From positions 744,001 to 808,000 of the forward strand of contig NZ_FOFI01000001.1 of the NCBI RefSeq assembly GCF_900110605.1: DNA of 64,000 nucleotides, in the 5' to 3' direction. Position numbers and translations under genes: made by a program. The notes below the pieces were generated by a model. The model worked only from the letters and a program-made list of their open reading frames with translations. It had not been told where the DNA came from and searched no databases. Position 1 is the first letter of the stretch. Each line of letters starts with the position of its first letter. Shown in pieces: positions 50,149 through 54,338 of this stretch. The DNA is from Epilithonimonas lactis. Lineage in GTDB: Bacteria; Bacteroidota; Bacteroidia; Flavobacteriales; Weeksellaceae.

Positions 50149-50172
50149 ATAGAGATACGATCCAATTATAAT

Positions 50173-50206
50173 AAAAAAAGACGCTTTTTAAAGTGTCTTT
50201 TTTTTG
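50173..50206 (+). terminator. terminator of the lipoprotein gene
   Basis: AAAAGACGCTT (50176-50186) and AAGTGTCTTTT (50191-50201) form a stem with a G-U pair, followed by a T-run. Confidence 0.75.
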
Positions 50207-50315
50207 TTTGGCTCTTCCCGAAAATAGAATTTTTGATGGTCACTGAACTGGAGTGCAAAGTTTTTAAAACATTTGGAAACCACAAACGACTGCAATTTTC
50301 GGGAATTTCTGAATG

Positions 50316-50492
50316 TTAACATATTTTTAAAAATTCAAACCACTCATTTTTAGTGCTTTAAATAGTTTAAGGATTTTTTGCAGTCAAAATTATCTGCTTC
50401 AAATTTAACAAATGGTGAACAGACTTTTAAATAGCCTTAACCTGTTAACCTGGATTTAACATAATCTTGATTTTCGTAACAGGATGTTAAAA
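50316..50492 (+). promoter_or_regulatory. 11-bp-phased TTAACA direct repeats upstream of the TonB receptor gene
   Basis: Hexamers close to TTAACA recur at exact 11-bp steps: 50316/50327; 50405, 50416, 50427; 50445, 50456, 50467; and 50476/50487 (TTAACA, TGAACA, TTAAAT, TTAACC, TTGATT, GTAACA, TTAAAA variants). Direct repeats with an 11-bp step are what OmpR/PhoB-family response regulators bind, and TTAACA is the Gram-positive PhoP hexamer. The nearest site ends about 80 bp before the ATG at 50571. Role in activation is inferred. The rest of the gap 50149-50570 shows only the terminator. Confidence 0.55.
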
Positions 50493-50570
50493 AATAGTTG
50501 TTAATTCTTATACATTCGGATTGCTTTCCAAAGCATTTCTTTGGCAACGAAGAAAAAAGGAAAGAAAAAA

Positions 50571-53120
50571 ATGAAAGCAAAAACAATAGGCATTAGTGCT
50601 TTGTTTCTTTGTATGTCAACCACAATGTTGTTGGCACAAACTACACAGGATACGCTGAAAGGCGAGAAGAAGATCGATGAGGTGAAGATCATCGGCAACA
50701 CGAAAAAGGGGAGCGAATCAAATCTCATCTCCACCCAAAGAAAATCTGCGGAGATCATAGAAAGAGTGGGCGCGGTCCAACTTTCTAAGCAAGGTATTGG
50801 CGACGTGGCCACTGCTGTTACAAAAGCTACCGGAACTGTAAAGCAGGAAGGCGGAAACACGATCTCGGTTCGAGGTTTGTTGGACCGCTACAACGCTACC
50901 ACTATGAATGGCCTGCCAATTCCGTCGGATGATCCCGAAAACAAAAACATCGACCTATCATTACTCAAAACAGATATCATAGATTACATCTCTCTGGAGA
51001 AGGTTTTCAATCCAAGATTGATGGGAGATTTTGGAGGTGCCAATATCAACATCGTCTCCAAAGAGTATTCTGGTAAAGGTTTTATCACTTTAGGAATGGA
51101 TAGCGGTTACAACCTTCAAAATTCCAAAACAGATAAATTCTATCTGCAGGACGGTCCCAACTTTTTCGGAACCAAAGTTCAGAAGGCACCTGCAAATCCG
51201 CTTTCTGCCTACAACTATCAGACGAGCTGGAATTTCAAAGATGCCTTTGGCCCATCGATGTTGATGCCTATCAATTCAGGCATGAATATCCAAGCTGGAA
51301 AATCTTTTAAAATTGGAGCGCAAGGTCGACTTAACACTTACGCTTATGCTGGTTTCAATAATGATTTCACATACCGTGAAGGATCAGAGGGACAGTTCGG
51401 GAAAGAAACAATGTTCAAAGATTTCGACAAGGTTCAAAAATATTCATATAACACAAACTCAACGGGATTATTAAATCTATTCTACAGGATCAATCCAAAC
51501 CACCAGTTGAAGTTGATCACCAACTATATCCATTCCACCAACCAGGAAGCCAAGATCTTCGAAGGTGCGATCAGGGATTATGCGGAAACAGGTGGTGCTT
51601 ATGTTAGAAGAGCAGATTACAAGGTAACCAATACATTGGTCAATCAATTGGGTGGTGATCACAAATTCGGGGACAAATTCTCTATCAACTGGATCGCGGG
51701 TTACAACTATCTTAATAGCCAAAGGCCAGACAGGATCACCAATACTTTAGTCAGCAACAACGATGCAGAAGGCACGTACTCTGTAACCAGAGAGGCGGGA
51801 CTCAACAACCGTTATTATGATAATCTGGATGATAAGGAATATACAGGTAACCTAACTTTCAACTACAATTTGAAAGACCAGTCCAAAGTGGCCTTCGGTT
51901 ATCAAGGGAGATTCAAAAAGAGATCATTCTTATCCAAGCAGATGGACTTCAAATGGAACAATGACAATTCCAATCCGATCAGAATTACAGACCCTAATAA
52001 TGTAGATGCGGTTTTCAACGCCTACAATTATGCCAAGGGATTCTTTGATATCACGAGTAACTTTGGTCCCGCAGATGTTTTGCAACCGATCATCTACAAT
52101 GGGGATCAGGATATCAACTCAGGTTTTGCAAACGTGGATTACAAATTCTCGGACAAGTTTATGGCCCAGCTGGGTGTGAGGTACGATCGTATAAGACAAT
52201 TTGTGGAATGGAGTGTCAACTTCTACACACCAATCACCGAGATCGAAAAAGTGTATAACAAATTCCTGCCGGCTTTCAACTTGAAATATGCCATCAATGA
52301 CAGGCAGAATCTAAGATTGGCCGCTTCCAGAACCTACACGCTTCCACAGCTAAAGGAGATGGCGCCTTACATTTACATAGATGTCACAGAAACGACGCAG
52401 GGGAACTATTATCTCAATCCTTCTGATAATAATAACGTGGACCTCAAGTGGGAGTTTTTCCCGAAAGCAGGAGAAGTGGTCTCATTATCAGCATTCGGAA
52501 AATATATTCAAAATCCGATCTCAAGAGCTTTTATCAATTCATCTGATCCTTACTTCTCTTACCTCAATGCAGGAGATTGGGCTTATGTTTATGGTATCGA
52601 AGCCGAGGTGAGAAAAGACCTTTTTAGTTTTGGTAATGGATCCAAACTCTACACATTTGTGAATGCGACCTACATGGATTCCAAAGCGGAATTGGATGGA
52701 GAGAAAGTGAAAAAGGACACGTATGATGCGCTTTCACAGGCAAGTCTTTTCGCGGTTAGTTTTGATGTGAAAGAAGATAGACTTCAAGGTGCGGCAGATT
52801 TTGTGGCCAATGCCAATCTTGGGTTCAACCACAAGTGGAATGGCGGAAACGAGTTGGACCTGGTGGCTTCATATTCCTACGTTGGAAGTTATCTGTATTC
52901 CATCAGTACAAACCAAATTGGTAACATAGAGCAAAAGCCTGTCAATATGCTGGATCTTACAGCCAAATTCAGATTCCAGAACAACATCGACTTTGGAATT
53001 TCCTTAAAAAACCTACTCAATCCAGAGATCAGAAGAGTACAGTCAAACTCACTCAATTCAGAGACCTATAACTTCAAGAGAGGACAGATCATCGGCGTCA
53101 ACGTAGGCTATAAATTCTAA
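50571..53120 (+). CDS. TonB-dependent outer-membrane receptor
   Basis: An 849-residue outer-membrane transporter from the ATG at 50571 (a TTG at 50541 would add ten mostly basic residues before the signal peptide). Signal peptide to about residue 22. The N-terminal extension TTQDTLKGEKKIDEVKIIGN leads directly into the plug (GDVATAVTKATGTVKQEGGNTISVRGLLDRYNATTMNGLPIPSDDPENKNIDLSLL, about 75-140). The rest is a 22-strand-type barrel, ending IGVNVGYKF with the expected aromatic terminus. No carboxypeptidase-like N-terminal domain precedes the plug, unlike SusC. A lipoprotein gene follows after 39 bp and is likely its partner. Substrate unknown; upstream sites suggest a nutrient-limitation response. 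Confidence 0.92.
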   Translation: MKAKTIGISALFLCMSTTMLLAQTTQDTLKGEKKIDEVKIIGNTKKGSESNLISTQRKSAEIIERVGAVQLSKQGIGDVATAVTKATGTVKQEGGNTISVRGLLDRYNATTMNGLPIPSDDPENKNIDLSLLKTDIIDYISLEKVFNPRLMGDFGGANINIVSKEYSGKGFITLGMDSGYNLQNSKTDKFYLQDGPNFFGTKVQKAPANPLSAYNYQTSWNFKDAFGPSMLMPINSGMNIQAGKSFKIGAQGRLNTYAYAGFNNDFTYREGSEGQFGKETMFKDFDKVQKYSYNTNSTGLLNLFYRINPNHQLKLITNYIHSTNQEAKIFEGAIRDYAETGGAYVRRADYKVTNTLVNQLGGDHKFGDKFSINWIAGYNYLNSQRPDRITNTLVSNNDAEGTYSVTREAGLNNRYYDNLDDKEYTGNLTFNYNLKDQSKVAFGYQGRFKKRSFLSKQMDFKWNNDNSNPIRITDPNNVDAVFNAYNYAKGFFDITSNFGPADVLQPIIYNGDQDINSGFANVDYKFSDKFMAQLGVRYDRIRQFVEWSVNFYTPITEIEKVYNKFLPAFNLKYAINDRQNLRLAASRTYTLPQLKEMAPYIYIDVTETTQGNYYLNPSDNNNVDLKWEFFPKAGEVVSLSAFGKYIQNPISRAFINSSDPYFSYLNAGDWAYVYGIEAEVRKDLFSFGNGSKLYTFVNATYMDSKAELDGEKVKKDTYDALSQASLFAVSFDVKEDRLQGAADFVANANLGFNHKWNGGNELDLVASYSYVGSYLYSISTNQIGNIEQKPVNMLDLTAKFRFQNNIDFGISLKNLLNPEIRRVQSNSLNSETYNFKRGQIIGVNVGYKF

Positions 53121-53159
53121 TTAAATAAAAATAATAAATAAACAAAAAAGTAAATTACA

Positions 53160-54338
53160 ATGAAAAAGTTAATCTCAAGTGCGTTAGTTCTTTGCACACT
53201 ATCTCTTACAACAGTTACAGTTTTCAACTCTTGTTCTTCTGATGATGACACGACTATCACACCAAACCCGAGCAATGTAAACATTGACCCAAACAATTTC
53301 AAAATTGCACTTAACTCTGGAGATAAGTTGGTTCTTGATGCAAACGTAACTTACACTATGACTGGACCTGTCATCGTAAACAACGGTGCAGAGATCACAA
53401 TTCCTGCAGGTACGAAAATCAACTGTACAGGCGGAACCAATACTTATCTTGCAGTAGCACAAGGTGGTAAGATATTTTCAAACGGTACAGCTGCCAATCC
53501 TGTGATCTTCACTTCTACTACAGCCAAGAAGTCAGATTGGGGTGGTATCGTAATCTGTGGTAAAGCACCTATCAACGCTGGTGAAACGGCCGTGTCAGAG
53601 GTTGCAACTTTGCCTTACGGTGGTAACATTGCTAATGACAACAGTGGATCGATCACATATACGCAGATCAGATATGCTGGAGCAAGATTCAACGCTTCCA
53701 AAGAGTACAACGGCCTTTCTCTTTTCGGAGTTGGTAACGGAACCAAGATCGACGGTGTTTCTGTGATCGATGGTGCAGATGATGGTATCGAGTTCTTCGG
53801 AGGTACAGTGAATGTTAGCAACATTGTTTCTGTAAACAATGATGATGATGCTTTTGACTGGACAGAGGGATGGAACGGAACTGCTACAAACGTTTTCACA
53901 AAAAGAACGGGAGCTACTGTTGGTAACAGAGGGATCGAAGGTGATAACAACGCAAACAACAGATCAAAAGAGCCAAGATCGAATCCGACCATCAAAAATG
54001 CAACTTTCATAGGTTTTACGACTAGTGATACAGAAGGTGTAGGAACAAACATTTTCAGAGAGGGAACTAGCGCAACGTTAGACAATATCGTATTCTCAGG
54101 ATGGGAGAGAGCGATCACAATTCAGCACGATGAATCTGTAACGCTTCTTAATGGGAAAAACAAATTCACAAACATCAAATTTGACAATGTGACCACAAAA
54201 GCTGTCACTATCGCTTCTGCCACTGGTTCTCTACCAGTACCTGCAGCAGATGGGACTTATTCAGAAAATGCCAATGCAGTAGGTGCTGGCAACGGAACAG
54301 CCAATCCTACTTGGGCTTCTGGTTGGGCAGGATTATAA
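53160..54338 (+). CDS. surface lipoprotein, beta-helix-like, partner of the TonB receptor
   Basis: A 392-residue lipoprotein: lipobox FNSC (Cys near residue 24), then SSDDDTTIT, an acidic surface-export-type signal. The mature part is rich in short beta turns of beta-helix type (TYTMTGPVIVNNGAEITIPAGTKI, GGKIFSNGTAANPVIFTS, KIDGVSVIDGADDGIEFFGGTVNVSNIVSVNNDDDAFDW). The segment GADDGIEFFGGTV and the DDDAFDW motif are striking acidic clusters that may bind cations. It is 39 bp after the receptor gene. Receptor and lipoprotein in one operon recall SusC/SusD, but this lipoprotein is not of the SusD fold. Closed by a terminator. Confidence 0.85.
   Translation: MKKLISSALVLCTLSLTTVTVFNSCSSDDDTTITPNPSNVNIDPNNFKIALNSGDKLVLDANVTYTMTGPVIVNNGAEITIPAGTKINCTGGTNTYLAVAQGGKIFSNGTAANPVIFTSTTAKKSDWGGIVICGKAPINAGETAVSEVATLPYGGNIANDNSGSITYTQIRYAGARFNASKEYNGLSLFGVGNGTKIDGVSVIDGADDGIEFFGGTVNVSNIVSVNNDDDAFDWTEGWNGTATNVFTKRTGATVGNRGIEGDNNANNRSKEPRSNPTIKNATFIGFTTSDTEGVGTNIFREGTSATLDNIVFSGWERAITIQHDESVTLLNGKNKFTNIKFDNVTTKAVTIASATGSLPVPAADGTYSENANAVGAGNGTANPTWASGWAGL

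Follow-up and report, generated by a model that had tools for sequence, protein, structure and literature searches.

The window, a stretch of 64,000 nucleotides from Epilithonimonas lactis, carries a TonB-dependent receptor operon that is preceded by a row of TTAACA-like hexamers. Which regulator would read these hexamers, and in response to which signal? The preliminary description took them as tandem dimer sites of a PhoB-type, possibly phosphate-starvation, operon. That reading is supported by the pairs of half-sites at an 11-bp step (step 11), by a pattern search and by the induction reported for Flavobacterium johnsoniae in the available text of PMC8115612. We consider it highly probable that a multi-site PhoB operator (Pho box) lies at 50405-50514, with the distal pair at 50316-50332 as an optional part, and that it switches on the operon at phosphate scarcity.

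The operon lies on the forward strand. Its first gene (50571..53120) encodes a TonB-dependent receptor of 849 aa with the Pfam domains TonB_dep_Rec_b-barrel and Plug. The list of open reading frames puts its start at a TTG at 50541, and the ATG at 50571 was taken instead. The nearest named relatives of the receptor (16 loci) come mostly from Epilithonimonas and Chryseobacterium. The second gene (53160..54338) encodes a lipoprotein of 392 aa, predicted to be all beta, which has no Pfam or NCBIfam match. It is homologous to the lipoprotein found with the phoB-linked receptor. Its structural model has a mean pLDDT of 83.9 and is nearly all beta. The PDB matches are mostly beta-helix proteins, none with E <0.001 and with low TM-scores. 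The model agrees with, and does not prove, the beta-helix fold that is a trait of ElpS/FII (pectin-lyase-like, IPR011050). Between the lipoprotein gene and pepE, the segment 54537-54990 contains tandem repeats with a 42-bp unit in 5.5 copies (97% match) as well as a perfect 7-bp unit, AACTATC, in 11.3 copies.

Ten hexamers had been placed in the upstream region on the forward strand, and all of the coordinates and exact 11-bp steps agree with the window sequence. TTAACA at 50316 and TTAAAA at 50327 make up the distal pair (50316..50332), an accessory site present in part of the genus only. TTAACA at 50405, TGAACA at 50416 and a weak TTAAAT at 50427 form the first putative PhoB dimer site (50405..50432). 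TTAACC at 50445 and TTAACA at 50456 form the second (50445..50461), and GTAACA at 50476 and TTAAAA at 50487 the third (50476..50492). The claimed hexamer TTGATT (50467..50472) is not TTAACA-like and probably lies outside the operator. Eight of the ten hexamers match TTAACA at five or more of the six positions; the exceptions are 50427 (4/6) and 50467 (3/6). Therefore, the triples that had been described are pairs with a weak third member. Two further hexamers in register, TTGTTA at 50498 and TATACA at 50509 (50498..50514, forward strand), were absent from the original list. Direct repeats with an 11-bp step, as expected of a Pho box, are present, and only part of the window half-sites are close matches.

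The intergenic region of 422 bp (50149-50570) holds four step-11 pairs of hexamers with at least five matching positions, and no other step from 6 to 30 gives more than one pair there. A comparison with shuffled AT-rich intergenic DNA of the genome had been proposed; dinucleotide shuffling, applied to this region only, failed to reproduce the array: the mean number of step-11 pairs was 0.086, and none of 5000 shuffles reached four. Elsewhere in the window, 36 intergenic regions exceed 80 bp, and each has at most one step-11 pair on either strand. Genome-wide, TTAACA-N5-TTAACA with up to two mismatches gave 718 matches, and the reversed pattern, as control, gave 1443. A single mismatched pair is thus common in this genome, and the signal is carried by clustering, position and conservation.

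Conservation was examined in a promoter alignment of 21 of the 23 genus genomes, from which G002 and G005 were left out. Loss of the spacing upstream of orthologous receptors had been named as an outcome that would speak against the proposal; the 11-bp steps are retained in 21/21 aligned genomes, which is weak evidence on its own because the alignment has almost no gaps. The most constant half-sites are 50405, 50416 and 50456, which match at five or more positions in 19, 20 and 21 of the 21 genomes, respectively. The same level of match is found for 50427 in 11/21 (TTAAAA in 11, TTAAAT in 10), for 50445 and 50476 in 9/21 each and for 50487 in 6/21. The distal half-sites reach it in 9/21 (50316) and 12/21 (50327), and 50467 is TTAACA-like in none of the 21. 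The additional positions 50498 and 50509 keep the 11-bp step in all 21 genomes, with TATACA at 50509 in 19 and TTAAAA at 50498 in 11. Across these 21 genomes, which are not independent owing to their close kinship, conservation is higher in the hexamer columns than in the spacers (0.89 vs 0.74, p 0.0016). The promoter of G002 (L069) is only 67% identical to that of the window and lacks its array. A relaxed expression that was used across the order detected a single pair in the window, and the same-genus loci L076 and L089 had none. Compared with other genera, the array is therefore more degenerate here.

The promoter consensus of Bacteroidota at -7 is TAnnTTTG. A -7-like element, TTTCTTTG (50536..50543, forward strand), is conserved in the genus alignment, and its role is proposed by analogy. 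Another candidate for this box, TACATTCG (50511-50518), departs from TAnnTTTG at a single position, but its final bases are variable among the genus genomes; therefore, TTTCTTTG was preferred. The proximal array position, 50509, ends 21 bp before the putative box, one bp off the 20 bp expected from the register in other genera. Among 30 sequences from other genera, a T[AT]NNTTTG box is present in 22 and absent from eight. In these genera, 32 of 57 TAAC sites precede the -7-like box by 9 modulo 11 bp (9, 20, 31, 42 and so on), where chance would give about five; the sites of one array are not independent of each other. A period of 10.5 gave a little more phase clustering (0.636) than one of 11 (0.571), because the offset between several blocks is about 9 or 20 bp. 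This register puts the proximal half-sites of other genera at the place of the -33 element, which would suit activation by bound PhoB.

Evidence that ties the 11-bp step to phosphate genes came from other genera. A PhoB search (E 1e-70) gave 141 matches in 140 of 196 genomes, while 56 of the 196 were without PhoB at this threshold. A set of 121 phoB loci was assembled from 30 of the matches, 80 further stretches and 11 earlier loci; L278 gave no phoB. From the 120 phoB upstream regions that were parsed, 42 face a receptor gene and 78 do not. The 42 correspond to 41 distinct regions since L077 and L173 hold the same one, and many of the 41 are from close relatives, so that 15 are non-redundant. 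These 15 contain 14 TAAC pairs at step 11 (z 28.5), none at steps 10, 12 or 13 and none at step 11 on the opposite strand. The pairs have echoes at steps 22, 33 and 44 and also at 19-20, 30-31 and 41-42. A strict step-11 pair is found in 23 of the 41 distinct regions and a relaxed one in 39 (13 of the 15 non-redundant regions), compared with 0 to 2 strict and 0 to 6 relaxed for the other steps from 8 to 15. The remaining 78 phoB upstream regions show a strict pair at step 11 in 32 cases, at steps 10 and 12 in one case each and at step 11 on the opposite strand in three.

Upstream of pstS, strict step-11 pairs occur in 13 of 21 regions, with 13 pairs in the 15 non-redundant ones (z 28); four of the 21 overlap phoB upstream regions already counted, and L321 was dropped. 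The tendency is weaker upstream of nptA, where five of 29 regions have a pair and 20 non-redundant regions hold four pairs. As background, a step-11 TAAC pair was found in eight of 176 intergenic regions (35.9 kb), and six of these eight are phoB or receptor-operon regions, that of the window included. The expectation that such pairs would recur in relatives is thus borne out for the phoB-divergent receptor and for pstS, with pairs at steps 10, 12 and 13 absent or rare.

A search that started from the pattern rather than from the genes was carried out in 61 Flavobacterium genomes, using two TAAC cores at step 11 followed by a -7-like box at a gap of 20 or 9. The gap-20 pattern gave 93 matches against 51 for its reversed control, and the same pattern at step 12 gave 31. 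The gap-9 pattern gave 34 matches against 48 for the reversed control; its support therefore rests on the identity of the downstream genes. The loci examined were 30 of the 93, 30 of the 34 and 30 of the 31 step-12 matches. A phosphate gene stands directly downstream in 18/30 gap-20 loci, 22/30 gap-9 loci and 0/30 step-12 controls, leaving 12 gap-20 and 8 gap-9 loci with no recognised phosphate gene. References for DUF47 and PhoA were added after the matches had been seen; if they are left out, 16, 12 and 0 of 30 loci remain. For the receptor and PstS, the references were taken from loci found earlier, and some of the receptor matches have no more than 30-35% identity. The downstream genes encode the receptor, PstS, DUF47 (PhoU_div), an ElpS-like lipoprotein (two loci) and alkaline phosphatase (one locus), with Pfam support for DUF47 and alkaline phosphatase. 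The idea that such sites would fall before pst and phosphatase genes was supported for step 11 with a -7-like box, and the step-12 control found none.

Among the matches listed for triple-TAAC sites, single genes for PitA, an Na/Pi transporter, OprP and GDPD are downstream, and what we take by eye to be PstC and PstB are among the neighbours. The motif is common to several phosphate-acquisition genes of the lineage, as a Pho box should be. Counts of the triple pattern are not above the reversed control (95 vs 122 in the 61 Flavobacterium genomes, 52 vs 95 in 59 relatives). Genome-wide enrichment was dropped as proof because pair and triple counts were below reversed controls, and gene identity, position and step size were used instead. 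The reversed pattern is a poor null since CAAT and TAAC differ in frequency, and the step-12 search is the better control. As a separate observation, a conserved TAAC triplet with 11-bp steps is located near DUF4197-like genes in several Flavobacterium genomes (L114, L118, L121, L122, L125 and L132), with a Pfam match for L125 only. These genes are possibly a further member of the regulon.

The operon itself can be connected with phoB through its homologues. Homologous receptor-lipoprotein pairs were found in nine loci of other genera (L077-L085), with identities of 24-39% for the receptor and 31-48% for the lipoprotein. The receptor gene is divergent from phoB in five of the nine (L077, L079, L080, L082 and L083), and the lipoprotein gene is divergent from phoB in one (L084). 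In this genome, the operon is not beside phoBR, which is on another contig, and phoB is non-adjacent in this genus. The order in L077 is glycosyltransferase, OprP-type porin, PhoR, PhoB, receptor and lipoprotein. This gene order and the Pfam domains are the same as those of Fjoh_0541-0546 as given in the available part of PMC8115612. By way of L077, the window pair appears to correspond to Fjoh_0545/0546. Both of these genes are induced by phosphate depletion in F. johnsoniae (FC 8.02 for Fjoh_0545 and FC 9.91 for Fjoh_0546), according to the same text, in which the lipoproteins FI, FII and FIII are said to resemble a low-phosphate lipoprotein of Caulobacter (PMC8115612). In L084, a step-11 TAAC pair (L084:3621-3801) was also observed upstream of a gene for a secreted protein of 1168 aa adjoining the receptor-lipoprotein operon. 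A protein of L084 looks nuclease-like by eye.

The regulator is available in the genome. PhoB is encoded at L106:6164-6841 with Response_reg and Trans_reg_C domains, and a histidine kinase gene is next to it. A PhoB with an OmpR-type DNA-binding domain, which a Pho box presupposes, is thus encoded. PstS (E 1e-20) and an Na/Pi transporter (E 1e-40) were not found in this genome at these thresholds; therefore, DUF47 was used for the test within the own genome. In 23/23 genus genomes, TTAAT[AG]-N5-TTAA[CT]A stands before the DUF47 gene, and a -7-like box follows it after 30 to 31 bp; this expression was written after the sequences were viewed. Upstream of phoB, TTCACA-N5-TTAACA is present in all six genus genomes examined (G000:C8:15084-15100, L106, in this genome). 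It faces away from phoB, and this orientation speaks against an autoregulation site. It resembles the receptor-facing site of Chryseobacterium-like genomes and may be a relic of a former position of the receptor operon there. The gene beside phoB is one that we take by eye to be glnS-like.

From these patterns we infer that PhoB binds the array in this organism and activates the operon in response to phosphate, and likewise what kind of substrate the receptor takes up. The sensor PhoR would phosphorylate PhoB at low phosphate. PhoB dimers would then occupy the pairs of TTAACA-like half-sites, with their 11-bp step, in head-to-tail arrangement. The proximal sites would be in register with the -7 box and in place of a -33 box, which would allow bound PhoB to recruit RNA polymerase, and the upstream pairs would contribute cooperative binding. 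The operon would supply the outer membrane with a TonB-dependent uptake system, and with a surface lipoprotein, for phosphorus scavenging.

Another OmpR-family regulator could in principle read the same step. At G000:C5:138914-138941 (L112:3334-7838), TTAACC-N5-TTAACC-N5-TTAACA lies between a kinase/response-regulator pair and a gene for an outer-membrane barrel. This array appears to mark a separate OmpR-family regulon. Its regulator (L112:3334-4011, with the kinase at L112:4001-5302) is the likeliest candidate for a competing assignment of the window array, which we regard as unlikely. In favour of this assignment, the system has its own TTAACC-type triplet at 11-bp steps, this triplet recurs between the kinase and barrel genes in at least 14 of the 23 genus genomes (this one and 13 further) and in at least six loci of the Flavobacterium group, and TTAACC-N5-TTAACA at window 50445-50461 looks like it. 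However, the base before each inner TTAAC is A in the triplet and T in the window pair, as compared by eye, and at step 11 the window pair lacks a third close match. Nor does the window array adjoin the G000:C5 system. The homologous receptor of other genera is linked to phoB and not to a system of the G000:C5 type, and step-11 pairs stand before pstS and DUF47 genes, which also argues against such a regulator. On the protein side, the segment RTIDVH[IV]R is constant in the six PhoBs compared, whereas the equivalent of RTIDVHIR differs in the regulator of the TTAACC-type system.

An operator that is ancestral and no longer responsive to phosphate in this genus, the operon now being away from phoBR and answering to another signal, is very unlikely. 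The location of phoB on another contig and the variation of several half-sites between species would fit such a loss. On the other hand, promoter identity is still 77-93% in 32 of 34 genus loci, among them the ones with a receptor body of only 28-51% identity, the recognition segment of PhoB is unchanged and the DUF47 pair is present in 23/23 genomes. Chance clustering in AT-rich intergenic DNA can practically be dismissed: mismatched TTAACA pairs are common genome-wide, but the shuffles never reproduced the array, six of the eight background regions with a pair belong to phoB or the receptor operon, and the step is specific in other genera.

A PhoB operator being the preferred reading, the genes behind it show a further peculiarity. 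In the 34 genus loci compared with the window (some species counted twice, from two collections), promoter identity is 77-93% in 32, 100% in L053 and 67% in L069, and receptor bodies are 28-87% identical. Over all the loci concerned, receptor bodies are 24-87% and lipoproteins 33-85% identical, and the flanking genes of the Weeksellaceae loci are 82-96% (yrdC) and 84-96% (pepE) identical. The loci concerned are window 50571-54338, L031-L040, L044-L046, L048-L065, L069, L072, L076 and L086-L092. L037 is an example: yrdC is 96%, pepE 93% and the promoter 93% identical, yet the receptor is 47% and the lipoprotein 41% identical. The signal peptide is mostly conserved among the genus loci, with L069 and L076 as exceptions. 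The cassette of G002 (L092) is flanked by these two genes as well and stands between them in another orientation. These identities suggest that receptor and lipoprotein are swapped together between members of the genus while the promoter, yrdC and pepE stay. Tentatively, a fixed multi-site PhoB promoter with its leader may drive an exchangeable receptor-lipoprotein cassette of several divergent types, replaced as a unit via recombination. If true, a starvation promoter serves as a socket for swaps of outer-membrane receptors; phages, bacteriocins or changing phosphorus sources may exert the pressure behind them.

The phosphate response of Bacteroidota is described in open-access papers (PMC8115612, PMC3547664, PMC4796936 and PMC9723704, as far as their available text goes). 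Among them, PhoB was studied in B. fragilis (PMC3547664, available part) and promoters of F. psychrophilum were described (PMC9723704, available part). In the open-access literature, as available and with supplements and most subscription journals outside its scope, no printed Pho-box sequence of Flavobacteriales was found, and the terms 'pho box' and 'motif' have no occurrence in the main text of the F. johnsoniae paper as available (PMC8115612). The present analysis provides a testable Flavobacteriales Pho-box sequence and the register that it keeps with the -7 box. This could make it possible to predict phosphate regulons of Bacteroidota from sequence and to propose receptors and lipoproteins that are still unnamed for phosphorus scavenging.

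The PhoP box of Bacillus subtilis is TTAACA-N5-TTAACA. The half-site and the 11-bp step are alike in the candidate operator, whereas the phylum and the promoter type differ. PhoB operators of Escherichia coli and other bacteria consist of tandem 11-nt direct repeats that are bound head to tail before phosphate genes, according to the available text of PMC4415409. The tandem repeats of the PHO box of E. coli are shared, but the putative half-site here is TTAACA-like and not CTGTCAT, and the candidate operator would act together with a -7 box of the Bacteroidota type. The Pho boxes predicted upstream of plcP clusters in marine bacteria, flavobacteria included (PMC4796936, available part), are likewise computational PhoB-site predictions for phosphate-starvation genes. 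ElpS of Caulobacter is a lipoprotein of the phosphate-starvation response, and its homologues are found together with homologues of a TonB-dependent receptor; this association is alike, whereas the Caulobacter receptor partner, Cc0171, is reported as constitutive in the available text (PMC2996285). Finally, the phoBR cluster of F. johnsoniae has the same order of receptor and lipoprotein FII (Fjoh_0546), as given in the available text of PMC8115612, whereas the pair described here lies away from phoBR.
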